DNA of 64,000 nucleotides from Parasedimentitalea maritima (lineage in GTDB: Bacteria; Pseudomonadota; Alphaproteobacteria; Rhodobacterales; Rhodobacteraceae), in the NCBI RefSeq assembly GCF_005771405.1, contig NZ_VAUA01000003.1, forward strand, positions 62,001 through 126,000, written 5' to 3'. Numbering within the stretch: the first letter of the stretch is position 1; every line of letters begins with the position of its first letter. The position numbers and the translations under genes are program-made. Below, piece after piece: positions 28,406 to 50,135 of the stretch. The notes beneath the pieces are model-generated. The model was not told where the DNA came from. It worked only from the letters and a program-made list of their open reading frames with translations, and searched no databases.

Positions 28406-29374
28406 CTATTGTACAGGTTCACGGTTGATCACCACCTCATAGCCAATCTCTTCTGGCTCATCGTCGATCAATTCAGTTGGAAAACCATCTGCCAGAACCT
28501 TGTGCCCGGTCACCTCTTCCAACCGCTCGATAATGCGATCAGACTGGGCCCGCTCCCCATAACGTTGCTGCCCGTCTTTCATGATACGAATGACTTCGGG
28601 GGACAATTCCAGCGGAACGTCATTGCGATCTGCTATGGCCTGGAACAATCCGATATCTTTGAGTACCAGATCCATGGTGAAATTTACATCTCTTGCCCCG
28701 GATAAGATCAGCTGGCTTTCAGTTTCGTGGGTGAACGATGTGCCCGAGCTGATCTTGATCGCTTCATAGGTGGTTGCCATATCCAGTCCAGCGGCTTTCA
28801 TCGTCACCATGGCCTCTGACAGTGTCAGCAAGTTAGCAGTGGCGAGATAGTTGGTCATCACCTTCAGGATGCTGGCCGTTCCTATCTCGCCTGTGTGCAA
28901 CACACGACGCCCCATCAGGGTGAGCAGCGGTAAGATACGTTCAAACGTGAGGCGGTCGCAGCCCGCAAAGATTGAGATATTGCCGGTATCAGCCCGATGA
29001 CAACCGCCCGAAACCGGGCATTCGACCGCTGCACCGCCACGTGCAATCACTGCGGCCCCCAAACGCCGGACTTCGGCTTCATCGGTGGTAGACATCTCCA
29101 TCCAAACCTTACCATCGGTCACCTCAGGCATCATTTCCTGCAACACCGCATCCGACGCGGTTGGCGAGGGAAGACAGGTGATCACGACATCACAATCCCG
29201 CATCAGCGCCGCAGCGCTATCACCTGCCTTTGCGCCCCTAGCAACAAAACCCTGCACAAGATCTGGATTCAAATCATGCGCAACCAAATCCACACCATTG
29301 CGAAGCAGGCTACCCGCCAGTTTGCCCCCCACATTGCCAAGGCCGATAAAGCCCACGTTCAGTCCCATTGTCAT
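28406..29374 (-). CDS. NAD(P)-dependent beta-hydroxyacid dehydrogenase (3-hydroxyisobutyrate dehydrogenase family)
   Basis: This is a 322-residue 6-phosphogluconate/3-hydroxyisobutyrate dehydrogenase superfamily member. The N-terminal nucleotide motif is VGFIGLGNVGGKLAGSLL. The substrate-binding signature lies near ECPVSGGCHRADTGNISIFAG, and the catalytic-lysine region is ASILKVMTNYLATANLL. It likely oxidises a beta-hydroxyacid with NAD(P). It is divergent from a LysR regulator with 103 bases between, which suggests that the regulator controls it in response to the substrate or product. AGGGG precedes ATG 29374. The exact substrate is unknown. Confidence 0.87.
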   Translation of the reverse strand: MTMGLNVGFIGLGNVGGKLAGSLLRNGVDLVAHDLNPDLVQGFVARGAKAGDSAAALMRDCDVVITCLPSPTASDAVLQEMMPEVTDGKVWMEMSTTDEAEVRRLGAAVIARGGAAVECPVSGGCHRADTGNISIFAGCDRLTFERILPLLTLMGRRVLHTGEIGTASILKVMTNYLATANLLTLSEAMVTMKAAGLDMATTYEAIKISSGTSFTHETESQLILSGARDVNFTMDLVLKDIGLFQAIADRNDVPLELSPEVIRIMKDGQQRYGERAQSDRIIERLEEVTGHKVLADGFPTELIDDEPEEIGYEVVINREPVQ

Positions 29375-29477: not shown

Positions 29478-30353
29478 ATGTCCGATCTTCCCAATCTTGT
29501 CTGGCTGCGTGCATTTGAGGCGTCAGCCCGGTTGCGCAGCTTTACCGCCGCAGCCGAAGAGCTGGGGTTAAGCCAAGCTGCTGTCTCGCATCAGATCCGC
29601 AGTCTGGAGGCGAGTTTTGGCGTCGCGCTCTTCCTGCGTCGTGCCCGTCATCTGGAATTGACGGCATTGGGTCATGCCTATTACCCGACTGTCGCGCAGG
29701 CGTTGGATGATATTGCCTATTCCACCCGCGGATTGCTGCGCCCCATGGAAGCGCGCGTCATTACCCTACGGGCCCCGATCTCAACCGCAGTCTTGTGGAT
29801 CGCACCACGTCTTAATGAATTTCAGATCCAGCACCCACACATCAAACTGCGGCTGATCTCTGCAATCTGGGCGGATAGCACCAGTGACAATGATGTGGAT
29901 ATCGACCTGCGCCTTGGGCCCTCCAGCTGGTTTGACCGTCGCGCTCATCTGCTATCGACTGAACATGTGGTTCCAGTGACCTCGCCGGAACTGGCCGCCC
30001 AACTGACCAATGCCCGTGATATTCTCAGCCAAAACTTGATTCACATTCATGGCTACCAAGACAACTGGCTGCGCTTCTCCAGGAGCCAAGGGTTAGACCC
30101 AAAAGATGGTCACGCCGACTTGTTGACGGATACATCACTGGCAGCCATCGAGATGGCCGCAGCGGGTGCAGGTGTGGCAATGATCATGCACCGGTATGCG
30201 CAAACAGCTTTGGATCAAGGTCGGATTACACGGGTGAAGGATTTTGAGATGCCTATGGGTCAGGGACATTACTTGATGCCGACCACCGGATCAGGCCCCA
30301 ACAGCGCCGAAGAAATGCGCGTACGGGATTGGATCACTGCGATTTTCTCCTGA
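29478..30353 (+). CDS. LysR-family transcriptional regulator
   Basis: This 291-residue LysR regulator has an N-terminal winged helix (LVWLRAFEASARLRSFTAAA, then LGLSQAAVSHQIRSLEA) and a C-terminal effector-binding domain. The N-terminus resembles the GcvA subgroup. It is divergent from the dehydrogenase gene, the usual arrangement for a LysR protein and its target; operator half-sites should lie between 29375 and 29477 but I could not pick out a clear T-N11-A motif. The ligand is unknown. Confidence 0.9.
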   Translation: MSDLPNLVWLRAFEASARLRSFTAAAEELGLSQAAVSHQIRSLEASFGVALFLRRARHLELTALGHAYYPTVAQALDDIAYSTRGLLRPMEARVITLRAPISTAVLWIAPRLNEFQIQHPHIKLRLISAIWADSTSDNDVDIDLRLGPSSWFDRRAHLLSTEHVVPVTSPELAAQLTNARDILSQNLIHIHGYQDNWLRFSRSQGLDPKDGHADLLTDTSLAAIEMAAAGAGVAMIMHRYAQTALDQGRITRVKDFEMPMGQGHYLMPTTGSGPNSAEEMRVRDWITAIFS

Positions 30354-30433
30354 AAACGGGGCGGGATACTTCGCGGGGATTGGCGGCCACAGAAGATGTT
30401 GCACCCCCCTGCACGGGTCGCTAGCTTCGCGAT

Positions 30434-31612
30434 ATGGTCTGGCCCAACAACACTCCGCCCCAACGTGATGGCGACGCCAACGCTGGCATCGACGTCACCG
30501 ATGATTTTGAGGGCTTTGCCCAGCGTAACGATGTCTTCACCCGCGCCTTTTGGGATGATCGGGTGATCTCAAAACACAGTGCTAAATTCTTTGCCTCCTA
30601 CAGGATGGAGGCCGCGCCACGCCGTGGTGATGGGTTTAGCCGCCGTGATTTTGCCTTGCGCAACGCGTCTTGGCTGATCTCGGACATGGTGTCGAACCGC
30701 ACCGCGGATCAGGGCCTGCGTCAGGGGTTTCAGGCACCGATCCAATCTGACACCCCTGTTGCCGATGAAACCATTGAGGTTGATGACCCGGCGCAAATGT
30801 CGGCCGAGATCAAACGTATCGCCAAGTTTTTTGGTGCTGACCTCTGCGGTGTCACCGATCTGGATGAACGCTGGCTGTATACCAGCCGCGTTGATACCCG
30901 CGACATGACTGACGCGCCGCATGATTTGCCCGAGGGCCTGACAAACGTGATTGTTCTGGGCCATGAGATGGACGAGGAACTTGTCGCCACCTACCCGTCT
31001 GCACTGGCCGGGGCGGCGACGGGGCGTGAGTACAGCCACGAAGCGTCAATTGTGATGCAACTGGCCGCCTATATTCGTAATCTGGGCTATGAGGCGGTCC
31101 CCTCGATGAATGACACCGGGTTGGTCATCCCCTATGCGGTCAAGGCCGGTCTGGGCGAATATGCCCGCAACCAGATGGTCATCACCCCTGAATTTGGCCC
31201 CCGTTTGCGGTTCTCCAAGATCTTCACCAACCTGCCACTATCCCATGACAGTGCCAAACCCAAAGGTGTGCGCGACTTTTGCGACATCTGCACCAAATGC
31301 GCCACTGCCTGCCCGGTCAAAGCCTTGCCCTTTGGCCCGCCTGAGGTGGGCGGCAGCAATGTCTCGGCGATCAAAGGCGTGCGCAAATGGACGTCTGATG
31401 CCGAGAAATGCTTCTCGTTCTGGGCCAAGCTATCGTCGGACTGCGCCATCTGCATGCGGGTTTGTCCCTTCAACCGCGACTATACCAAGCCACAACACAG
31501 GTTGTGGCTCAAACTTGCCCTGTCCCCACTGCGCCACCTGGCGCTAAGATTATCCAAATCCCATGGAGCGCGTAAAAAGCCCGGAGGGTGGTGGTCCAAA
31601 AACGCCAACTAG
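30434..31612 (+). CDS. Reductive dehalogenase-like iron-sulfur protein
   Basis: This is a 392-residue protein with the core pattern of the RdhA/epoxyqueuosine-reductase superfamily. Residues 196-270 carry TGREYSHEASIVMQL, then SMNDTGLVIPYAVKAGLGEY and ITPEFGPRLRFSKIFTNLPL, which read like cobalamin-binding reductive dehalogenases rather than QueG. Two 4Fe-4S clusters are bound by C283-C286-C289-C293 (CDICTKCATACP) and C326-C337-C340-C344 (CAICMRVCPF). No twin-arginine signal is seen, so it is cytosolic, unlike respiratory dehalogenases. A CbiX-like chelatase gene follows 33 bases later. A true dehalogenase, or a corrinoid-dependent enzyme of another kind, remains possible. Confidence 0.72.
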   Translation: MVWPNNTPPQRDGDANAGIDVTDDFEGFAQRNDVFTRAFWDDRVISKHSAKFFASYRMEAAPRRGDGFSRRDFALRNASWLISDMVSNRTADQGLRQGFQAPIQSDTPVADETIEVDDPAQMSAEIKRIAKFFGADLCGVTDLDERWLYTSRVDTRDMTDAPHDLPEGLTNVIVLGHEMDEELVATYPSALAGAATGREYSHEASIVMQLAAYIRNLGYEAVPSMNDTGLVIPYAVKAGLGEYARNQMVITPEFGPRLRFSKIFTNLPLSHDSAKPKGVRDFCDICTKCATACPVKALPFGPPEVGGSNVSAIKGVRKWTSDAEKCFSFWAKLSSDCAICMRVCPFNRDYTKPQHRLWLKLALSPLRHLALRLSKSHGARKKPGGWWSKNAN

Positions 31613-31645
31613 TGCTTTCAAAATTCAGCCCAAACAGCCAGCCAA

Positions 31646-32362
31646 ATGATAATGCCAAACGCCCGTCCCATAGCCCTGATCACCGCCCATGGCCAACCTT
31701 CGGCTCCCAAGTCACCTGAGGCAGCGCTGGCGCGGTTAGCGGCACAGTTGCAGGATCTATTGCCAGACTGGCAGATCCGATCGGCCACCTTATCAACACC
31801 GGGTCGGTTTGAAGCTGAACTGACACCCGGCACTGTCATCTATCCGTTTTTTATGGCCCGCGGCTGGTTTGTCGGCAAAGTACTGCCCAGCCGGATCGGC
31901 AACATCCCACATCAGATGGCCTGCCCCTTTGGGCTCGACCCTGCCCTGCCCGCGCTTGTCGCTTCAGCACTGGATCACGAAGTTGCCCAACGCGGCTGGA
32001 CCGGTCAAACTTATGACCTATTGCTGGCAGCACATGGCTCGGCGCGTGGCCCCAAGGCCGCCGAGGCCGCCGAGGCTTTTGCAAAGGTCCTGCGCCCCCT
32101 GCTGCCCTGCGCCCGGATTTCCCTTGGATTTGTGGAACAGAATCCAACGATTGAAACAGCTGCCAAGATCTTGAGAGCCCGCGCTCTATGCCTCCCCTTT
32201 TTCGCCCAAGCCGGGGATCACAGCCGCACCGATGTTCCACAGTCCCTTATCGCGGCAGGGATCCACGACACGCCCTTGACAGTGACCGGCGCCCTCCCTG
32301 GGACCGCCGCGCTAATTGCCGGGGCCCTGCAGGCTTGCAGAAAAGAGAGTGAAATCCGATAA
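31646..32362 (+). CDS. CbiX-like sirohydrochlorin chelatase family protein
   Basis: This is a 238-residue protein with two halves of the CbiX/SirB type. The N-terminal half starts IALITAHGQPSAPKSPE and the second half has YDLLLAAHGSARGPKAAEAA, each with the AHG histidine expected to hold the metal. LCLPFFAQAGDHSRTDVP adds a further family motif. CbiX enzymes insert cobalt, nickel or iron into sirohydrochlorin. It follows the reductive-dehalogenase-like gene with 33 bases between, so the pair may be co-transcribed. Whether it makes cobalamin precursor or siroheme cannot be told; other cobalamin genes are absent from the window. Confidence 0.75.
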   Translation: MIMPNARPIALITAHGQPSAPKSPEAALARLAAQLQDLLPDWQIRSATLSTPGRFEAELTPGTVIYPFFMARGWFVGKVLPSRIGNIPHQMACPFGLDPALPALVASALDHEVAQRGWTGQTYDLLLAAHGSARGPKAAEAAEAFAKVLRPLLPCARISLGFVEQNPTIETAAKILRARALCLPFFAQAGDHSRTDVPQSLIAAGIHDTPLTVTGALPGTAALIAGALQACRKESEIR

Positions 32363-33134
32363 AAATATCCAATCGTGCTTCTTTGAGAATTGGGCCCATG
32401 TTCACTTCGGACACCTATCATGGATCATGGCACGCACCTTAGCCAGCGGGTTGGCCGAGTGGTCATGCAGCTGACTGCCAATTCGACGGTTTCCCCTTGA
32501 TATAGTTAAGTAGAATGCGTTTGAAACTTGCGTGATATTGGGGGAACAAAACATGAAAATATGCCAGGATATTTCAAACATCCCGCTTCAATTTTAGTTG
32601 GACATATTAGTGCTGATCTTCCTGATTGAAATCAAAACCTAAGACAGCCACCAAGACGTGCCCTTCATACAGTAGATCTAAACTATCCGCGTTTGTGTTT
32701 TGGAACCCACGCCAACTTCGATAAGTAGTTCGGTCAGGAACGGTTGCAAGGCATCTACTAGCTCCAGAGAGAATTGCCGAGGCAACTGTCTTGTTTCAAA
32801 ATTTAGGACAGATAGATATCTTTTCTGCACCTGCTCTGATTCCATCATAAGATGAAAATGGATCATACCCCCGAATGAAACGACCTCAAGAACTTAGCCA
32901 CAAACCTATACTCGTATAAAATTCGGGCGGTGTTATTCGGGTAAGAATCGAACAGAATATTGACGAAAACAAATGAGATCCAGAGCCTACAAAATGGCAA
33001 TGGATCCAACTCAACACAGTACAGAACTTTCCGCAAATAGTATTGCTTAACTACCCCCTGCATTGCATACACGTAGAGCTTTTCAACCAAAACTAAAATC
33101 TAACATTAGCGATATAGTCGAAGAAGGTATTTCA
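32363..33134. other. AT-rich gene-poor stretch
   Basis: About 770 bases with no convincing gene. Two minus-strand frames (32678-32866 and 32863-33090) lack ribosome-binding sites and family resemblance. A tRNA-Cys-like fragment is at 32446-32485. The region is visibly more AT-rich than the chromosome to its left and may mark the edge of acquired DNA. Confidence 0.5.
32446..32485 (+). pseudogene. Degraded tRNA-Cys-like fragment
   Basis: The 40 bases from GCGGGTTGGCCGAGTGG onward match positions 37291-37330 of the intact tRNA-Cys at 32 of 40 bases by eye: the 5' acceptor part, the D arm and most of the anticodon arm. The anticodon would read GCC rather than GCA. The T arm and 3' acceptor are not recognisable. 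It may be the relic of an earlier integration or duplication, or a chance likeness to D-arm sequences. Confidence 0.35.
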
Positions 33135-34565
33135 ATGAAAAAATTGCTTTTCATCGCTGCGGCCTACGTGTCGTCCTTAGGGGCCGCATCAGCTGAGTTT
33201 TCTTGGCATAACAGCACAGCAACATCATGCTTAAGTGTATGCAATGCTTCAAAGCAGGCCCCTGTCTCCACGGGCACTTACGATGGTGAAAATTACTATA
33301 TATGTTCGTTCAAAACGGATTCGGATACCAGCCCTCGTCCCGGCTACAATCTCATTCAAGGATGGTCACCAAAAGGCGAAAGTTGTTTTTCTGCAGCAGG
33401 GAAGAATTCGGCTGCGAGTGAGACATTTAGCTGTTTGTGCAATAAAGAATCGCCAAAGTATCCGCTTGGAACTTTTGATGTAGCTACCGTTCCTGCACCG
33501 GGAGGTTTGCAAAAGGATCTGCTTAATCTCTCAGATGGAAGCTTTGCCGTTCGTTGGGCTGACAAACTGTCAATCTATAGCAATAAGGGTGTAAGGACAG
33601 GCGCCATTTTGCAAATCCCCGGGGAAATCGTCAAGCTGCCCGACGGAGGGTTTCTTGCGTTCTATGACGAAGTGACAGGACACGTCGACCGTTCCGTCAT
33701 TCGTTCTTCCTACATCCAGAAATATGATAATTCGGGCCAGAGTGTTGGTGAACGGCTAACAGTGAAAATTGGTGACAATGAAGCCAATACAGTCTCTGCG
33801 TCTGTAGTCAAAATTTTGAAACTATCTCCTCAAACCGGACATAGATATGTCCTGGCAATGTATGGAGGATTTGTGATCTACGATGCGAACACACATACGA
33901 TCGATGACTTTCAACCTGTTCTACCAATTCCAAAATATGGTTCGCCTGACAACGTCATCAGCGATGTGGCGCTTCTCTCCAATGGCTCTTTCGAAGTTTT
34001 GTCATATTCTGACAATATGGGAGAAGACTGGAAGTACATTTCCCGGTTCAATTCAAAAGGCACCAATGTATCGGCCGCAAAAAAACTTTACACAAAAGAA
34101 ACAAACCACTTTGCAAATGGAAGAATCTTTGCAACTCCAGATGGTGGATTTGAGGCGTTTTGGCCAACCTATGTCAACGGAGATGGCAACACACACTGGT
34201 TAGCTCGAAGCTTTGACGCGAGTGGTAGCAGCATAGGGGACTCAGTTTCAGTTTCTAACCTAACAGCGCCGCAAAGTGCTTATTTGAATCTTGCCTCAGT
34301 TGGGGAGAATTGCAAACTGGCCACCTTTGCAGAAGTACTAAGCGATGGAAATTTTGATATCAAAATGAGTTTGGTAAACTCAAAATTTAAAGCCTCAACA
34401 CCTATATCCATCATTAACAGTGATAATGGAAATCCAATGAATGCAATTGGATTGAGACTGGACGATGGAAGTGTACTGATGTCTTGGGAAGCGTATCAAA
34501 CTAACGACACCAAGATTGTACGAGGTCAAATCTTCCCTAGTTCGATGTTTGCGTGCCAAGGTTAA
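33135..34565 (+). CDS. Exported protein with beta-propeller-like repeats
   Basis: This is a 476-residue exported protein. The signal peptide MKKLLFIAAAYVSSLGAASA is cleaved before EFSWHNS. ATG 33135 is preceded by GAAGG, and the longer frame from 33063 has no support. A cysteine-rich N-terminal part (CLSVCNAS, CSFKTDS, CFSAAG, CLCNKES) covers about 100 residues. It is followed by repeats of about 50 residues with the recurring phrases LSDGSFAVRW, LPDGGFLAFY, LSNGSFEVLS, TPDGGFEAFW and LSDGNFDIKM. Such repeats are typical of beta-propellers. The gene is AT-rich and flanked by gene-poor DNA, suggesting transfer. The function is unknown; surface adhesion or polymer binding is possible. Confidence 0.72.
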   Translation: MKKLLFIAAAYVSSLGAASAEFSWHNSTATSCLSVCNASKQAPVSTGTYDGENYYICSFKTDSDTSPRPGYNLIQGWSPKGESCFSAAGKNSAASETFSCLCNKESPKYPLGTFDVATVPAPGGLQKDLLNLSDGSFAVRWADKLSIYSNKGVRTGAILQIPGEIVKLPDGGFLAFYDEVTGHVDRSVIRSSYIQKYDNSGQSVGERLTVKIGDNEANTVSASVVKILKLSPQTGHRYVLAMYGGFVIYDANTHTIDDFQPVLPIPKYGSPDNVISDVALLSNGSFEVLSYSDNMGEDWKYISRFNSKGTNVSAAKKLYTKETNHFANGRIFATPDGGFEAFWPTYVNGDGNTHWLARSFDASGSSIGDSVSVSNLTAPQSAYLNLASVGENCKLATFAEVLSDGNFDIKMSLVNSKFKASTPISIINSDNGNPMNAIGLRLDDGSVLMSWEAYQTNDTKIVRGQIFPSSMFACQG

Positions 34566-34585
34566 CGTTTTTCTTGCTAACTATC

Positions 34586-34619
34586 TAGCTGGCAAAGTTT
34601 CCATTGACCTTGCCAGCTA
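34586..34619 (+). terminator. Probable terminator after the exported repeat protein
   Basis: A 10-bp stem TAGCTGGCAA / TTGCCAGCTA with a 14-base loop begins 20 bases after the stop codon. A weak T-rich tail (TTCTGT) follows. The position and stem suit an intrinsic terminator; the poor U tract lowers confidence. Confidence 0.45.
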
Positions 34620-35552
34620 TTCTGTACTGATTTCATTGGCGGTAGTTTTTTTCCAACACAGCACTGTTCGAACTATTGTTGTAGCCAGAGCGGACTACGC
34701 TTCATACTGCAATGTGAAAGCTACGATGTAGGAACAGCATGGCTTATATGGGGCTGTTTTACCCCTTCCAAATCCTGTGCGCTGCAAGTTGTCTCTACTT
34801 TAACATCGTTGGCTTATCGCACAGTGTCTGTCAGCAATCCGCACTTTGTGTCGTATGCTACGGCTGTGGAAGGCCCTTAACCGACTTTGTAGCTGATCGG
34901 TCCATTTGGTCGCTGCAAAAAGAGCGCTCTGAAGAACAACGAAGTGCCAACGATTCTTAAGGAAGCATTTGGCGGCCATAAGTCTAATGACTTTCACCAT
35001 CCCTTTTAGTTTTGAACACAACAAACGTGGCTGCGGTTTAGACGGTTCTTCCCATCGTTGCTTGAAGTAACATGCGCGACATTCCAAATGGCTCAAGAAC
35101 TGAGATCCGCCCCCGCAAAACGTTGAGGGTACTCGGCTCACCTCAAGTGACGCTTGTCGAAATAGGACAAATTCTTGACAACCATACGGTGAGGGAGCAC
35201 TTCAATTCACACGGAAAATCCATTCTTCAGATGAGACCTCATGTTAGTAACACATTGAAATTACTACTTTCTATATAACCAGCATCTATTTCATGCTCTC
35301 ACAGCTCTCGAACAAAAACTTGCGACAGGAATGTCGTCGGCCACCAAATTTGTTTGTTTTCTCTAAATCCGCCTTTGCGTTAGCGATTTGTTTTCTTGTC
35401 TAGAACTAGTGTCCAATTGCACCTCTTACCAAAGGTGGCATGCAGACCTGAGGGTCAAGCGTAATGTCAGAATGACCCCCATCAACAGTTTCGAAGAAGG
35501 CCTCAAAACGGGCCCATATTTCGAACAACCGTGACCACTAGGAGCACTACCA
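34620..35552. other. Gene-poor region before the flagellin gene
   Basis: About 930 AT-rich bases. Several frames of 60-110 codons exist on both strands but none has a ribosome-binding site or recognisable family. The flagellin promoter must be near the right end. No RNA gene or repeat array is seen. Confidence 0.5.
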
Positions 35553-36401
35553 ATGACAAGTATTCTGACAAACAATGGCGCAATGGTTGCCTTGCAGACT
35601 CTGCAGTCCGTGAACGACAACCTGACCACTGCCCAGAACGAAATCTCCACCGGTAAACGCGTTGGATCCGCCAGCGACAACGCCGCTGTATGGGCGATTT
35701 CGAAAACAATGGAATCCGATATCGCGGGTTTTGAAGCCATCTCCGAAAGCCTGTCAGTTGGTGAAGCCACTGTTTCGGTTGCTTCGGCCGGTGCTGAACA
35801 GATCGTGGAAAAACTAACTGAAATCAAAGAACTGATCGTTTCCGCTCAGTCTGAAAACGTCGACCACACCAAGATCCAAAACGACATCGACGCGAAGGCT
35901 GAACAGGTTGCTGCCATCATTGGTGCCGCCCAATTCAATGGCGCCAACCTGTTGGCCACTGACGTTGATGGCAACGGTGCTACCTCGTTGGGCGTTCTGG
36001 CATCCCTTGATCGCGTTGGAGCAACAGGCACCCCAACTGCAACCGAAATCACGGTTACTACGGTAGATTTTGAAGCCAATGTTGACTTGGCAGCTAACCT
36101 AACATCAATTGCAGATGTCACCACTGCGGCCACAGCTTTAGGTGAAATCGAAGGCTTCCTGACCGTGGCTATTACTGGTGCCGCCGCACTGGGTTCCGAT
36201 ACCGCGCGTCTGAAGGACCAGGGTGATTTTGTCGGTAAGCTGACAGACTCCATGAAGATGGGTGTCAGCTCGATGACCGACACCAACATGGAAGAGGCCT
36301 CTGCCCGATTGAAGGCCCTGCAGACCCAGCAGCAGCTGGCAGTGCAGTCCCTCTCGATCGCAAATGGTGCGCCACAGTCGATCATGACACTGTTCCGCTA
36401 A
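35553..36401 (+). CDS. fliC: Flagellin
   Basis: This is a 282-residue short flagellin typical of Rhodobacterales. The N-terminal D0/D1 helices are present (MTSILTNNGAMVALQTLQ, NEISTGKRVGSASDNAAVWA). The C-terminal D1/D0 helices include ASARLKALQTQQQLAVQSLSI and end ...SIMTLFR. The surface-exposed middle is short, about 100 residues. The leader contains TAGGAGC before the ATG. Other flagellar genes are absent from the window, so the filament gene is separated from its apparatus here. A strong terminator follows. It is exported by the flagellar type III system without a cleaved signal. Confidence 0.93.
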   Translation: MTSILTNNGAMVALQTLQSVNDNLTTAQNEISTGKRVGSASDNAAVWAISKTMESDIAGFEAISESLSVGEATVSVASAGAEQIVEKLTEIKELIVSAQSENVDHTKIQNDIDAKAEQVAAIIGAAQFNGANLLATDVDGNGATSLGVLASLDRVGATGTPTATEITVTTVDFEANVDLAANLTSIADVTTAATALGEIEGFLTVAITGAAALGSDTARLKDQGDFVGKLTDSMKMGVSSMTDTNMEEASARLKALQTQQQLAVQSLSIANGAPQSIMTLFR

Positions 36402-36408
36402 GTAAAAT

Positions 36409-36435
36409 AAACCGGGGCGCCTGATCGCCCCGGTT
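36409..36435 (+). terminator. Rho-independent terminator of the flagellin gene
   Basis: A 10-bp stem AACCGGGGCG / CGCCCCGGTT with a short loop lies 8 bases after the flagellin stop. The stem ends in TTT but the T run is short. The position and stem strength make it a convincing terminator for a highly expressed gene. Confidence 0.8.
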
Positions 36436-36888
36436 TCCCAACCGCTCGACTATGTAAAACTGGACTAAAAGCACAAGTTCCACAAAACGAGTGTAATTCG
36501 ACATTTGAAATGTCAGGACATTTTCTGGCCGGTCCAACAGCGACTCTGTTTCGGAGCCAGAAAACGGGCGGTCAATTACCTGATATGCCATCCATTCACC
36601 AGTTGGCAGATCGCCCCCCAATTCGAGAATGCACTGCACTATCCGTCGACCAATGTTCGGTATCTTGTTGCTTTATCCGCGTGACATTGGGACCGTGCCC
36701 CGGTTTGCTCCTAATGATCATCACCGCCAATGGATCGCTGACATTAACTGCCAGAACCTGCCCTGCTGTGTTGGTGCTTGTTTCGTCCCCAAAAGGAGCA
36801 ACAGAATTACGGACTAGGTTGACCTAGGTCCACTGCTCCCTGCCAGCCGAAAACTGACCAAACCCAAAGCCCAGCATCATTCTTAACT

Positions 36889-37077
36889 ATGGGCAGTTGC
36901 TGTTATTCCGGCGGTTTCAAACTGGCACATTACCGCGCCACTGGCCCTAGATCTTATCGTGGAGCAGCTGATGGCGTATTGAGGATCCGGCGACAGATCG
37001 GCTCTGAGGCTTATGGCATTCACGCTTTGAAGCACACCACGGTGACCGAGTTTTGCCTAACGGGTACCGATGATTAA
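36889..37077 (+). pseudogene. Remnant of a tyrosine recombinase (phage-type integrase)
   Basis: A 62-codon frame contains DGVLRIRRQIGSEAY directly followed by GIHALKHTTVTEF and LTGTDD. The first part resembles the strand before the catalytic core of tyrosine recombinases. The second aligns with the HGLRKNATIELYLAGCDD box of the intact integrase at 37432-38463 (7 of 18 identical by eye). The rest of the gene is missing and the joint between the boxes is shortened. It lies 213 bases before tRNA-Cys, on the side opposite to the present element, so it may be left from an older integration. Confidence 0.42.
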
Positions 37078-37289
37078 ACGATAGCAGCGTAACAGGGCAA
37101 AGCCACAAAATCGCGCAGCGCTGTACCCGCGCCGTTCGCCAAAAGGCACGAGCTTCGATCAAATGACATCGCAATCGAACAGCGTGCCCCCCCTAAAAGA
37201 GAAGAACGAAAATGTATGGTAAACTGAGTAGCAGAGGCCCTTGCGCTCTTCTATGGAATCGCCTAATACGCCTGCACCACAGCGACTTG

Positions 37290-37363
37290 GGCGAGTTGGC
37301 GGAGTGGTGACGCAGCGGATTGCAAATCCGTGTACACCGGTTCGATTCCGGTACTCGCCTCCA
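37290..37363 (+). tRNA. tRNA-Cys (GCA anticodon)
   Basis: The 74 bases fold into a full cloverleaf. The acceptor stem is GGCGAGT (37290-37296) with ACTCGCC (37353-37359), the discriminator base is T and the encoded CCA is at 37361-37363. The anticodon loop is TTGCAAA within GCGGA/TCCGT, giving GCA. The T arm is CCGG-TTCGATT-CCGG. It is the apparent integration target of the element to its right, whose integrase gene begins 69 bases further on. Confidence 0.96.
37345..37363. other. Probable left attachment site (3' end of tRNA-Cys)
   Basis: Integrases of this kind recombine at tRNA 3' ends, and here the integrase gene lies directly behind tRNA-Cys and points towards it. The core site should be within the T arm and acceptor end (GATTCCGGTACTCGCCTCCA region). 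The matching right-hand copy is not in the window, so the exact borders are unknown. Confidence 0.4.
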
Positions 37364-37431
37364 ATAAAATCAATGACTTGCGTCATCCCTTCTCTCCTTC
37401 ACTGCCATTTTTGAAACAACCGTTGAAACTT

Positions 37432-38463
37432 TCACGTTTCGGCCTTGCTTCGTTCCATTTGATTTCTTGCCTCTTGAGCGCGCTTCGCGAGCTCTCTTTG
37501 CCGGATCGGCCCACCGTACTTTTTCAGCATTTCGACGCCTGAATGGCCGGTGACGGCCTTGACCATCTCGTCATCACATCCAGCCAGATACAGCTCGATC
37601 GTCGCATTTTTCCTGAGCCCATGCGTTTTGTAGTAGCTCGCCTTCTCGTGCTTCATCTTCTTTTTGATGGTGCGCATTTCCTCCGCAACGATCCGATAGC
37701 TTACCGGTCGCCCCTTCGCGTCGGTTACAACAGTGCCGTCTGTCCGCGCGATGCCTTCGAGATGGGCTCTCAGGCGGTCGGTAAGCGGGATCCACAACGG
37801 TTTGTCGGTTTTGCCCTGCGTGAAATCGAATCCTTCATCGGAGAAATGCTCCCACTTCATTTTCACGACATCACCAATGCGCTGGCCTGTACCAACGCAA
37901 AGCTCGTAGACCAGCCGCGCCCGCTTTGAAGCCAGCGCCTCGAACTCTGCTCGAACATCGTTTGGCCAAGGCTCCCACCCGTCGCTTTGCTGCTTGAAGA
38001 GCGGAATGCCCTTCGCCGGATTGCCATGCTCTTTCTTGATAAAACCAATCAGACGGGCGTGGTTCATCAAGACGACCATGACCTGGACGAGATAGTTGGC
38101 TTGCCGCCAGTGATCCGCATTGGCGCGGTGCAATTCGTAAATGTGATGGGTTTCGATCCTGGCCGGGTCTTTCTCCGCCCATATCTCACGAATGTGGCTG
38201 ATGTAACGCCGATAGTCGGATCTCGTCCGGGGCTTCAGCTTCTTGTAGGCATCGCTCTCATAGTAGCTGAGAATCAACGCCTCAAAATTGCGCTTCACCG
38301 GCGCAGGCGCTGGTTTTCCCTTCAGCAAGCGATTGTAGTGATCCCAAAATTCCGGTGTGCCCGCTTCCTCGTGCATCATAACAGAGATGCCGCGCGATCG
38401 CCGGATGAACCGTAGGTAACCCCTGTCACTATAGACGTATTTTGGCAGGCTCTTGCGGGTCAT
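37432..38463 (-). CDS. int: Tyrosine recombinase / integrase of the element
   Basis: This is a 343-residue site-specific recombinase. The N-terminal part (to about residue 170) holds a SAM-like core-binding domain. The catalytic residues are seen as R195 (GTGQRIGDVV), H281 and R284 (HGLRKNA), H307 (TGHSG) and the tyrosine Y316 (KKYGG). The gene starts with ATG 38463, overlapping the stop of the preceding small gene in ATGA. It is read towards tRNA-Cys and ends 69 bases from it, which is the classical integrase-at-attL arrangement. It should integrate and, with an excision factor, excise the element. Confidence 0.95.
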   Translation of the reverse strand: MTRKSLPKYVYSDRGYLRFIRRSRGISVMMHEEAGTPEFWDHYNRLLKGKPAPAPVKRNFEALILSYYESDAYKKLKPRTRSDYRRYISHIREIWAEKDPARIETHHIYELHRANADHWRQANYLVQVMVVLMNHARLIGFIKKEHGNPAKGIPLFKQQSDGWEPWPNDVRAEFEALASKRARLVYELCVGTGQRIGDVVKMKWEHFSDEGFDFTQGKTDKPLWIPLTDRLRAHLEGIARTDGTVVTDAKGRPVSYRIVAEEMRTIKKKMKHEKASYYKTHGLRKNATIELYLAGCDDEMVKAVTGHSGVEMLKKYGGPIRQRELAKRAQEARNQMERSKAET

Positions 38464-46233: not shown

Positions 46234-46560
46234 ATGAATTTGATGCAAGACGCCCCCAATGTTGTCAGCGAAGACGGGCTGCGCACACTGCTTGCCGAAA
46301 GACATTCGGCGGATGTCGTGTGCCGAGTTACGCCCAAACGTACAGGTGCTCAGTGGTCCGGAGTTTGGACCGTGCATTGCGTCTCGCCAGATGGCGAGAC
46401 GCGTCGCCTGCTTGTCACCGCGCGCAACAACATGGCCGCGCGAGAGTTCAAGACAATCAACGGCTTATCCAGCTTCCTTGCCGGGCTTGGCGTTTCGATC
46501 ATTTCTATCCCGATGTTCGAAGGCAAGGTCGCCTCGCACACACTGGACGACTCGAGTTAA
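46234..46560 (+). CDS. Conserved hypothetical protein preceding virB1 (108 aa)
   Basis: The ATG at 46234 (MNLMQDAPNVVSEDG) has GTAAGG upstream; the frame extends back to 45967 but only this start has a ribosome-binding site. The 108-residue product is soluble, with RRLLVTARNNMAAREFKTIN in its middle. It is the first gene of the virB transcription unit and strongly overlaps the N-terminal part of virB1 in another frame. I do not recognise the family. Confidence 0.6.
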   Translation: MNLMQDAPNVVSEDGLRTLLAERHSADVVCRVTPKRTGAQWSGVWTVHCVSPDGETRRLLVTARNNMAAREFKTINGLSSFLAGLGVSIISIPMFEGKVASHTLDDSS

Positions 46561-47203
46561 GGCACTTGCTGTCCTCGCAGCATTCCTTGCTACACCCGCC
46601 TATTCTGAAGGTTTCGTTCTTTCTATGTGGGCCGATGGCCAGCTGGAGACCAAAACACCCCAATCAGGTTTTGCGCAAAGTTATGTCGACGGGATTGGCA
46701 CAAACCCAACAGAGCTGATCGTTTTCGCAGCACCTGAGCCTGAAGTGCCGCGATCTGCACCCGCTCCGGCACTCCCTCGCCCTGAAATCCTCGCAGCTCT
46801 TGAAAGCACCGCGCATCGTTATGGCGGGCATCCTGCACTGCGCCGCGCCGGGCTGTCGGTGACGGAATGGCAGGCACTCTTCCAAGCCAACATTGAGATC
46901 GAAAGCGCTTATCGGCCGAATGCGCGCAGCTCGGCAGGCGCGATCGGCCTCGGCCAGTTGATGCCAGCCACAGCTGCGCAGCTTGGTGTGGACCCTCTCG
47001 ACTGGCAGGCCAACCTAGATGGCTCCGCTCGATACCTTCTGATGATGCTCGCGCAGTTCGGCACGCCCGAACTCGCGCTTGCTGCCTATAACGCCGGACC
47101 AGACGCGGTCGCGCGCTACGGCGGCATTCCCCCTTACCAAGAAACCCAAAATCACGTGCGCCGCGTCATGGCCGTGCGTGACCGACTGACTGGAGCCTCC
47201 TGA
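46487..47203 (+). CDS. virB1: VirB1-like lytic transglycosylase
   Basis: VirB1 locally opens peptidoglycan for the secretion channel. The SLT domain is clear: FQANIEIESAYRPNARSSAG holds the catalytic Glu, then GLGQLMPATAAQLG and LALAAYNAGPDAVARYGG. A signal-peptide-like stretch (VKALAVLAAFLATPAYSE) precedes it. The start is not settled: no ATG lies in the right place, and the TTG at 46487 is the best in-frame choice I can find. The frame stays open to 46259 but overlaps the previous gene. Its stop overlaps the virB2 start by one base. Confidence 0.8.
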   Translation: MAFRSFLSRCSKARSPRTHWTTRVKALAVLAAFLATPAYSEGFVLSMWADGQLETKTPQSGFAQSYVDGIGTNPTELIVFAAPEPEVPRSAPAPALPRPEILAALESTAHRYGGHPALRRAGLSVTEWQALFQANIEIESAYRPNARSSAGAIGLGQLMPATAAQLGVDPLDWQANLDGSARYLLMMLAQFGTPELALAAYNAGPDAVARYGGIPPYQETQNHVRRVMAVRDRLTGAS

Positions 47204-47500: not shown

Positions 47501-47779
47501 ATGGCAACGCAAACCCGCCTCTTCTTGGGCCTGATCCGGCCGCCAAAGCTCATCGGCTTGCCGATCATTTATGCTATGGTCTGGCTCTTCGGGTTTGTGT
47601 TGTTGTTTTTATGGGTTCAGAGCTGGCCGGTGATCGTCATCGCCGCTCTGGCCTATCCAGCCTTATGGAAAGCGGCTGACTGGGATCCCGCGTTTCTTGA
47701 AGTGATGGTCACCGCTTTGCAGGAAACGCCACCGACCCCGAACCGCAAGATCCATTCGGGGGACAGCTATGCTCCGTGA
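47501..47779 (+). CDS. virB3: VirB3-like inner-membrane protein
   Basis: This is a 92-residue protein with a short soluble N-terminus (LGLIRPPKLIGLP) and two hydrophobic helices (IIYAMVWLFGFVLLFLW and WPVIVIAALAYPAL), the VirB3 signature. It is an inner-membrane partner of VirB4 and VirB6. Its end overlaps virB4 by 11 bases. Confidence 0.88.
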   Translation: MATQTRLFLGLIRPPKLIGLPIIYAMVWLFGFVLLFLWVQSWPVIVIAALAYPALWKAADWDPAFLEVMVTALQETPPTPNRKIHSGDSYAP

Positions 47780-50135
47780 TCCTTCGGATGATCTTGTGAT
47801 GCTGCCGGACTGGGCGCGCAAAGAGCGCCCTATGGCCAGCATGCTGCCCTATGTCAGCCTGGTGAATGACGTGACGATCCGCACGCGCGGCAATGCCTTG
47901 TTCCAGTGCATCCGCCTTGATGGCGTCAACAGCATGACCACCGATGATGCGCATTTGGAAAAGATCCGCGCGCTCTTCGCGGCGATCATCGCGCAGATCG
48001 GGCCGGAGTACAGTTTCTATGTGCACAAGGTCTCAAAAGCGATTGAGACCGCCTTGCCACCAGTGCCCAGTGAAGGGTTTGCCCAAGCTTTGGATGCCCG
48101 TTGGCATGCCGCCATGACGCGTGCGGGCCTTCGAGATAAAACACTCACGCTCACGGTGCTGAAACGTCCTCCCCTCGGCGCGCGGCTGCGCCTGAATCGT
48201 GCAGACTCAATCGCACAGCTGAAAGACCAGACGGCCAAGCAGCTGCGCAAGCTCGAAGAAGTCGTTGGGTTTCTGCTCTCATCTTTTGCCGAGATGAACC
48301 CACGCCTGCTTGGGGCTGAGAGCGGCGAACTGCTGGGGTTCCTCGGGGCGCTCAACATCGGCCAGGAACGACCGCTCTTCGCAAAATCCCGCCTTGGCAT
48401 CATCGCTGAGGATGTGGCCAATACGCGGATAACGTTTCACGGGCGAGGTTTTACCCTTGACGATGGGTCGGCGAGCAAGTGGTTTGGTACCAGTTTCGCG
48501 ATCAAGACCTATCCGGCCAAAACCAATTGCACCATGTTCGATGAGCTGAACCTGCCTGTCGACATGGTGGTTACGCACTCCTTCACGCCGATCAACAGCA
48601 ACATCATGGCCAGCCGGATCAAACGCCAACAGCGTCTGATGAAGGCCAGCGATGATGGCGCGATATCTCTCGCCGAAGAGCTGGTCGACGCGCTGGACGA
48701 TCTTGAATCCAAGCGGCTCAGCTTCGGCGATCATCACATGACAGTCACGGCCTTCGCGGAGACCGAGGAAAAGCTGGAAGCAATCGCCGCCGAGGTGCGC
48801 AACATCGCGGCCAGTGAAGGCGTCAATCTGGTAAACGAGAGTTTTGCGGCTCGGACCCATTATTTCGCGCAGCATCCGGGCAACGGGCAGATGCGCAGCC
48901 GCAAGGCCGCCATCACCAACACGAACTTTGCCGACCTCGCAGCGCTTCATCGCGGTCAATTGGGCAAACCCGGACACAAAGTACCTTGGGGCAAGCCGAT
49001 TACTCTGTTCCCGACACCCGAACGCTCGGGCTTCCTGTTCAACTACCATGAAACGGGTCAGTCAGACAAAGAGCCGACAGGCGGGCACACCTTGATCCTC
49101 GGCCGCCCTGGCTCTGGCAAGTCGGTGTTGTCAGCCTTTCTCATGACCCAAGCCCGGCGCTGCGAAGCGCGCGTCTTTGTTTTCGACTATCGCGCTGGCA
49201 TGGAAATGGCGGTGCGGGCCAATGGCGGGCGCTACAGCGCCATCAAGGCGGGTGAAGCGACAGGCCTAAACCCGCTGCACACCGAAATCGACGGGCGCGG
49301 CCAAGCCTGGCTTTCTGATTGGCTGGCAACACTGCTGCATCGCACCGACAAGCCCCTGAGCCCGGTTCAGATCAACCGCATTCAAGAGGTGGTGCGCCAG
49401 AACGCCGGAGCCAGCGACGCCGCGCTTCGCAACTGGCAGGATCTGGCCTCGCTCTTTGTGGCCGGGGCGGATGAAGGGGATCTGTTCGAACGGATCCAGG
49501 AATGGACCGCCGAGGGCCGCTACGGCTGGATCTTCGGTCAAAGCGCTGAGGATACCTTCTCGCTCGATGGTGATGTCGTGGGGTTCGACTTGACCGGCAT
49601 TCTCGACAGCGAAAGCGAGAAGGAACGCATGGCGGTCCTGTCCTATCTGTTTCGGCGGGTGGAGCGCGTGATCGAGGATCGCAAGCCGACGCTGATCATC
49701 ATCGATGAGGCCTGGAAGGCTCTGGATAACCCGTATTTTGCGGATCGGCTGAGCAACTGGCTCGTGACCGCGCGCAAACAAAACGCGGTCGTCGTTATGA
49801 TGACCCAATACGCAAGCCAGCTTGAGAAAACCCGCATCGGCAAGACGATTGTCGAGGCCGTACCGACGCAGCTTTTGCTTCCCAACATTCGCGCCTCGGC
49901 CAGCGACTACACCATGCTGGGGCTCACTGACAAAGAGCTGAGCGTATTGCTCGGCACAGGCAGCAGCTCCCGCCTGGCACTGGTGCGTGATGATCAAGGA
50001 TCGGTGGTAATCGACGCTGATCTGAGCGCCCTTGGCACTTACCTCACGATCCTTGGCGGCATGGAGAAAGGCGAAGCGCTGGTCGGCGCGGATTATCGCC
50101 AGAACCCCGAATTTTGGAGACAGATTGATGCGTAG
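47769..50135 (+). CDS. virB4: VirB4-like conjugation ATPase
   Basis: This is a 788-residue ATPase of the type IV secretion system, which energises pilus assembly and substrate transfer. The Walker A motif ILGRPGSGKSVLSAF lies near residue 445 and Walker B TLIIIDEAWKALDN near 640, followed by QNAVVVMMTQYASQLEKTRIG. The N-terminal domain (VSLVNDVTIRTRGN) is the VirB4/CagE part. The length and spacing of motifs are normal. It overlaps both neighbours, so translation of the operon is coupled throughout. Confidence 0.95.
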   Translation: MLRDPSDDLVMLPDWARKERPMASMLPYVSLVNDVTIRTRGNALFQCIRLDGVNSMTTDDAHLEKIRALFAAIIAQIGPEYSFYVHKVSKAIETALPPVPSEGFAQALDARWHAAMTRAGLRDKTLTLTVLKRPPLGARLRLNRADSIAQLKDQTAKQLRKLEEVVGFLLSSFAEMNPRLLGAESGELLGFLGALNIGQERPLFAKSRLGIIAEDVANTRITFHGRGFTLDDGSASKWFGTSFAIKTYPAKTNCTMFDELNLPVDMVVTHSFTPINSNIMASRIKRQQRLMKASDDGAISLAEELVDALDDLESKRLSFGDHHMTVTAFAETEEKLEAIAAEVRNIAASEGVNLVNESFAARTHYFAQHPGNGQMRSRKAAITNTNFADLAALHRGQLGKPGHKVPWGKPITLFPTPERSGFLFNYHETGQSDKEPTGGHTLILGRPGSGKSVLSAFLMTQARRCEARVFVFDYRAGMEMAVRANGGRYSAIKAGEATGLNPLHTEIDGRGQAWLSDWLATLLHRTDKPLSPVQINRIQEVVRQNAGASDAALRNWQDLASLFVAGADEGDLFERIQEWTAEGRYGWIFGQSAEDTFSLDGDVVGFDLTGILDSESEKERMAVLSYLFRRVERVIEDRKPTLIIIDEAWKALDNPYFADRLSNWLVTARKQNAVVVMMTQYASQLEKTRIGKTIVEAVPTQLLLPNIRASASDYTMLGLTDKELSVLLGTGSSSRLALVRDDQGSVVIDADLSALGTYLTILGGMEKGEALVGADYRQNPEFWRQIDA

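Follow-up and report, generated by a model that had tools for sequence, protein, structure and literature searches.

The question raised by this locus of Parasedimentitalea maritima is whether two adjacent genes, one for a short protein resembling reductive dehalogenases and the other for a CbiX-like chelatase, form a partnership in which the second provides for the cofactor of the first, and what reaction the first would carry out. The original prediction had placed two open reading frames at 30434-32362 of the window (the whole stretch of 64,000 nucleotides that was analysed), and both are present there, on the forward strand and separated by 33 nt (Table 1). The first is far beyond what chance would produce, because orthologs with 45–85% identity, some of them partial, are read in 39 other genomes of a family sample of 295.

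The explanation that we regard as highly probable is that this first gene encodes a stand-alone cytosolic dehalogenase with a cobamide and two [4Fe-4S] clusters, orthologous to the debrominase Ros_A3X954, and that its neighbour is a siroheme ferrochelatase. If so, two low-potential electrons from a separate donor would pass through the two clusters to a Co(I) cobamide, and a halophenol-like substrate would be cleaved at its carbon-halogen bond; Tyr200 would give the proton, in a pocket shaped by Asn226 and Arg259. The dehalogenase would have a conserved promoter to itself and a leaderless transcript, and the siroheme ferrochelatase would adjoin the dehalogenase without being the source of its cofactor.

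Table 1. Features of the locus, with positions numbered from the first letter of the window.
Feature	Position	Strand	Basis
3-hydroxyisobutyrate-dehydrogenase-like gene	28406-29374	divergent from the LysR/dehalogenase pair	
LysR-family regulator (GcvA-like), directly upstream of the dehalogenase	29478-30353	+	Pfam/NCBIfam
Putative -35 box TTGCAC of the dehalogenase gene	30399-30404	+	column peak at -35 to -32 in 72 orthologous upstream regions
Putative -10 box TAGCTT, 17-nt spacer	30422-30427	+	column peak inside -12 to -7; inferred +1 at the first base of the ATG
Predicted cytosolic reductive dehalogenase ORF, 392 aa	30434-31612	+	TIGR02486; 79% identity to L169; PceA/NpRdhA by sequence and predicted fold
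Tyr200 codon	31031-31033	+	aligned with PceA Tyr246 (likely proton donor); gap-free, offset 46
Asn226 codon	31109-31111	+	aligned with PceA Asn272
Arg259 codon	31208-31210	+	aligned with PceA Arg305
First cluster motif CDICTKCATACP, residues 283-294	31280-31315	+	cysteines invariant in 47/47
Cys326 and second cluster motif CAICMRVCP (residues 337-345)	31409-31468	+	cysteines invariant in 47/47
CbiX-type chelatase ORF, 238 aa	31646-32362	+	4ccs match; essential His pair; distribution test

The family assignment of the first protein draws on several models. It obtains 168.1 bits on TIGR02486 (cut-off 160.35), 40 bits on the 4Fe-4S double-cluster model (cut-off 30) and 24.8 bits on PF13486 Dehalogenase, where the margin over the cut-off of 24.3 is 0.5 bit, and all 47 members of the ortholog alignment match TIGR02486 (E ≤0.001; best 9.4e-55). 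When solved structures were searched with the single sequence, PceA came first (E 4e-49), followed by the tetrachloroethene dehalogenase structure 8q4h (7e-48), NpRdhA (5e-30) and QueG (5e-12); in a profile search 8q4h and PceA were on top and QueG last, and the same ranking, again with QueG last, is given by the fold predicted with AlphaFold2, a model used for this ranking only because its confidence is middling (mean pLDDT 64.1). Residues 1-110 fall outside the family-model and PDB matches.

The two 4Fe-4S sites and the RdhA-like core motifs that had been noticed in the letters are borne out by the alignments: the eight cysteines of the two clusters are invariant in the 47 aligned orthologs, and PceA aligns without gaps, at a constant offset of 46, across residues 159-348, therefore Tyr200, Asn226 and Arg259, each of them invariant in all 47 sequences, correspond to Tyr246, Asn272 and Arg305 of PceA. 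In the published accounts, the proton is likely given by Tyr246 (Tyr426 in NpRdhA), and Arg305 and Asn272 belong to the ring that limits access to the cobalt (PMC5500849, PMC7565698). From its sequence, then, the product is predicted to be a true reductive dehalogenase. The pocket is not identical to that of PceA, and the range of substrates may differ, because the position of Tyr382, described as belonging to the PceA pocket, is occupied by Asp336 in all 47 rows.

What this dehalogenase would act on is suggested by an enzyme that has already been studied. In a scan of named genomes 279 relatives came to light, the best 80 of which were kept for comparison, and among these best 80 of 279 is a protein of Roseobacter sp. 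MED193 (L169) with 79% identity, with cluster motifs at 283-294 and 337-345 and a PF13486 match at 174-269. The motif and domain coordinates published for Ros_A3X954 of strain MED193 are the same (PMC13101508), and we take L169 to be that protein because of these two coincidences, of strain and of coordinates. According to the same account, Ros_A3X954, when expressed in E. coli, debrominates 2,6-dibromophenol to 2-bromophenol with a kcat of 1.1 per s; the enzyme is described as oxygen-sensitive and free of a Tat signal, and as 72.2% identical to a Pararhodobacter enzyme reported to deiodinate triiodophenol (PMC13101508). The function is therefore established, as of April 2026 and in the terms of that account, for an ortholog (PMC13101508). 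By sequence comparison the window enzyme is an ortholog of this cytosolic debrominase and, because Ros_A3X954 has been characterised, it is very likely a cytosolic halophenol debrominase or deiodinase by analogy.

An alternative explanation would be that we are dealing with a corrinoid and Fe-S enzyme that has the dehalogenase fold and a native reaction other than dehalogenation. The change from Tyr382 to Asp336 could be read in this way, as could the surroundings, where no halogen-related gene was recognised beside the dehalogenase among the annotated neighbours. The commonest neighbour over 39 loci is a divergent gene resembling 3-hydroxyisobutyrate dehydrogenase, present in 13 of them including the window (12/38 in other genera, upstream), and it may point to a link with another pathway. 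Clustering of the neighbours in these 39 loci gives syntenic, mostly housekeeping genes: Tad pilus, glutamate dehydrogenase, pirin, TetR, homoserine dehydrogenase, GlpX and RecJ, with glucose-6-phosphate dehydrogenase in another group of loci (from pirin onwards these are named from one representative each, and some neighbours are left without annotation). We take the 3-hydroxyisobutyrate-dehydrogenase-like gene for a case of synteny rather than of functional linkage. A native reaction of another kind is unlikely, given the activity of the ortholog with 79% identity, which removes bromine from 2,6-dibromophenol at the rate mentioned, and that of the relative of this ortholog with ~72% identity, which is reported to remove iodine from triiodophenol.

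Returning to the second gene, the claim that a CbiX-like chelatase follows the dehalogenase is confirmed: it is of the two-half CbiX type (PF01903, 34.5 bits against a cut-off of 22) and matches the Paracoccus CbiX (PDB 4ccs) with E 9.6e-37 across 222 residues. His130 and His192, in its C-terminal half, align with His127 and His187, which are described as essential in the ‘CbiX’ of Paracoccus pantotrophus, a sirohydrochlorin ferrochelatase that by the same account took iron in preference to added cobalt (PMC4063343). The two proteins are thus alike in keeping both essential histidines, and they differ in context, as only the chelatase of the window adjoins a dehalogenase.

The further suggestion that the chelatase could supply a cobalt corrinoid precursor has fared less well. 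In its strict form it would make this protein a cobalt chelatase devoted to feeding the corrinoid synthesis that serves the dehalogenase, and a CbiX of anaerobic pathways is indeed described as putting cobalt into sirohydrochlorin (PMC4063343). Seven of the eight genomes of the genus have both genes, with the chelatase immediately downstream in 7/7, and the eighth, which is 85% complete, has neither; in three members of the genus the CbiX linked to the dehalogenase is the sole CbiX match. This genus-wide adjacency counts in itself as an argument for a link. Against it, no CbiX lies beside the dehalogenase in 38 neighbourhoods of other genera (38 of the 39 other ortholog-bearing genomes, some of the stretches being short), and among the best 80 of the 279 named relatives there are three loci with an adjacent CbiX, all on contigs of genus members.

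The distribution of the genes points in the same direction. With CbiX counted at E ≤1e-30 (75 genomes) and Met8/CysG at E ≤0.001 (197 genomes), 20 of the 295 genomes have both, 55 only CbiX, 177 only Met8 and 43 neither, so that CbiX and Met8/CysG avoid each other (Fisher p = 7e-17, for related genomes that are not independent samples), with 20 of the 75 CbiX genomes, which also have Met8, as exceptions to the replacement. No association appears between the dehalogenase and CbiX: 13 genomes have both, 27 only the dehalogenase, 62 only CbiX and 193 neither (p = 0.33, with the same dependence among the 295 related genomes). In other words, CbiX occurs where Met8/CysG is absent and shows no such relation to the dehalogenase, and a pairing of the two genes was observed in a single genus, because of which a partnership for corrinoid supply is not supported.

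The genome of P. maritima agrees with this. TIGR01470 has no match in it, and a search of the genus with PF13241 gave no clear Met8, only weak and mostly paired matches in frames of 462-478 aa, which by inference belong to a TrkA-like protein. Sulfite/nitrite reductase domains (PF01077) are present; a CbiX paralog, 43% identical to the window chelatase, belongs to a locus for heme d1, where NirJ is two genes away; and elsewhere there is a frame of 1087 aa of the CobN family, the large-subunit type of the aerobic cobalt chelatase, although PF02514 also covers magnesium chelatase, from which this frame is not told apart.

By its distribution and its histidine pair, the chelatase is most likely a sirohydrochlorin ferrochelatase for siroheme synthesis. 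This is the most economical interpretation of a protein whose metal preference is not readable from its sequence, and the gene probably adjoins the dehalogenase through a lineage-specific gene order and not as a supplier of cofactor. A dedicated cobalt chelatase is distinctly unlikely, weighed against the preference for iron described for the Paracoccus enzyme (PMC4063343) and the CobN-family frame, and with 0/38 neighbourhoods and p = 0.33 this partnership was dropped as the leading idea. The lesson would be a general one: a ‘CbiX’ beside a B12 enzyme is not, alone, evidence of cofactor supply.

A bolder scenario can be imagined, in which the siroheme chelatase was recruited into the dehalogenase operon in this genus only and would load cobalt under anoxia, while the dehalogenase would be a constitutive, stand-alone debrominase, translated from a leaderless mRNA and supplied with electrons by a ferredoxin or flavodoxin of general use. 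We consider it highly unlikely, but if it were true, marine heterotrophs would debrominate natural bromophenols in anoxic microniches without dedicated pathway genes.

As regards the place of the enzyme in the cell, the original prediction spoke of a short protein with no twin-arginine signal, and on both points it holds. The 392 aa compare with 482 and 493 aa in two Tat-type homologs used as controls, and no N-terminal Tat signal was found: the sole RRxF-like word is SRRDFAL at residue 69, followed by no strongly hydrophobic segment and poorly kept (its first Arg is present in 4 of 47 rows), unlike the controls, in which SRRDF stands at residue 9 and a hydrophobic stretch comes next. PceA of Sulfurospirillum multivorans is a respiratory, exported enzyme, and the fact that its score lies above that of the cytosolic NpRdhA might be taken to suggest a respiratory, Tat-exported and membrane-anchored dehalogenase here too; such an enzyme is extremely improbable, given the missing signal and the lack of a small RdhB-type anchor ORF directly downstream, where the chelatase begins after the short gap and where the Sulfurospirillum homolog has an ORF of 225 bp that is absent at the window locus. 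Nor was a reductase fused to the dehalogenase or recognised next door, a fused reductase or Fer2 domain giving no match at E up to 1 within the 392 aa, and a separate electron donor would therefore be expected, as would the binding of a cobamide in an enzyme of this family. The anatomy is that predicted for a cytosolic (“catabolic”) reductive dehalogenase. The same genome contains a second, fused dehalogenase of 1069 aa (L072, contig C21, 9295-12504) with a C-terminal 2Fe-2S (Fer2) domain, and dehalogenase-matching frames of ~1069 aa are common in the family sample.

That the gene encodes a QueG-type tRNA epoxyqueuosine reductase, the case that the original prediction had named as its own refutation, is almost certainly wrong and was rejected, for although the fold is common to both and the 47 orthologs all match the QueG model at E ≤0.001, they do so more weakly (best 8e-17), the window protein stays at 50.4 bits under a cut-off of 200, a tree of 22 proteins separates QueG from all dehalogenases with support 100/99, and a separate gene of 351 aa in the same genome groups with QueG. 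Much of this tree lies on long branches and the unfused dehalogenase clade holds together in no more than 20% of the bootstrap trees, and because of several such branches a finer placement inside the dehalogenases is unsafe. The non-respiratory cytosolic dehalogenase that had been put forward as possible has accordingly gained ground: the protein is without a Tat signal, it is not QueG, and its ortholog is described as acting on 2,6-dibromophenol (PMC13101508).

The expression of the gene can be approached through its upstream region, for which 72 of 81 orthologous regions were used, nine being left out as their aligned start is not a start codon. Columns above 0.35 bit occur only at -35 to -32 (TTGC), at -12, -11, -9, -8 and -7 (TA-CGT) and at -1. 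After thinning to <60% identity (72 to 53 regions), the exact TTG and TAnnnT words are found at the promoter positions in 27/53, as opposed to at most 4/53 in any other register tried, and a Shine-Dalgarno-like word in 2/53. A sigma-70-like promoter is thus conserved across the clade, at 30399-30436 of the window. Because the spacing of the boxes puts the +1 on the ATG and Shine-Dalgarno words are nearly absent, a leaderless mRNA is predicted for the dehalogenase. This promoter signature offers a simple, testable statement on dehalogenase expression, and among the papers of the library searched none joined ‘reductive dehalogenase’ and ‘leaderless’.

The boxes are present with and without a LysR neighbour, and in 14 of the best 80 of the 279 relatives a LysR gene immediately precedes the dehalogenase; control by the LysR regulator of the window is possible. 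A candidate LysR box, TGCA-N6-TGCA, upstream of the window gene was dropped, being found in 0/31 other upstream stretches, those with LysR included. At Rfam gathering scores no corrinoid riboswitch was found upstream, the sole match in the whole window being a tRNA, and ten related loci gave four matches, all tRNAs, and no riboswitch.

Beyond the chelatase, the stretch 32363-38463 is likely an integrated island: a tRNA at 37290-37360 is followed by a phage-type integrase (37432-38463, minus strand) and preceded by ~4.9 kb of ORFs with lower third-position GC, which include a flagellin gene and an ORF of 500 aa without a family match. In the relatives L140, L144 and L111 a tRNA lies ~90-540 nt past the chelatase gene, and in L139 ~2 kb past it. 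Further along, a VirB4/TrbE-type ATPase gene (47769-50135) and a lytic transglycosylase (46259-47203) may belong to a cluster for type IV secretion or conjugation.

At the level of the family, sampled as one genome per genus, the ortholog (E 1.1e-110 or better) is found in 40 of 295 genomes, that of P. maritima included, with some copies partial. Two orthologs have an internal stop or a split frame (G136:C14:5638-6777 and G137:C32:27782-28928), and the gene may be decaying in some genera. The family is rich in marine heterotrophs and, because a characterised type of debrominase can now be placed in 40/295 of its sampled genera, bromine cycling may be a wide and quiet trait within it. A third group of short dehalogenase-like proteins, of ~335 aa, is also seen in the family (L074 9759-10766 and seven more frames, 329-337 aa), 30-36% identical to the window protein and with one tree member on a very long branch. 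Among the best 80 of the 279 named relatives, those from other orders are metagenome bins, perhaps misbinned; L195, L196, L214 and L217, with 73-76% identity, come from bins labelled Nitratireductor, Salaquimonas, Deltaproteobacteria and Cohaesibacteraceae, and may represent either transfer or misbinning.

When the window protein is set beside known systems, the fused enzymes BhbA of Comamonas 7D-2 and JtRdhA are of the same cytosolic type and share its core, but they are self-sufficient, carrying a reductase domain that the window protein does not have (BhbA, L230, measures 1013 aa); its identity to the four fused dehalogenases compared is 27-31%, and the substrates described for JtRdhA are phenols bearing bromine or iodine (PMC10463259). 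NpRdhA of Nitratireductor pacificus (PDB 4ras, 704 residues), by published account a catabolic and cytosolic enzyme with a tyrosine proton donor (PMC7565698), differs in an additional N-terminal half resembling a dehalogenase and is a more distant match than PceA. The latter is the best solved relative in the single-sequence search, with the three active-site residues aligned, and is set apart by the tyrosine that stands where the window protein has its aspartate. The nearest characterised system is Ros_A3X954, which shares with the window protein the positions of both cluster motifs as well as the absence of a Tat signal and of a fused reductase; it comes from another species, the first motifs of the two differ, with CATACP in place of CADACP, and its locus in MED193, unlike that of the window, has neither a LysR nor a CbiX neighbour within 6 kb on each side.
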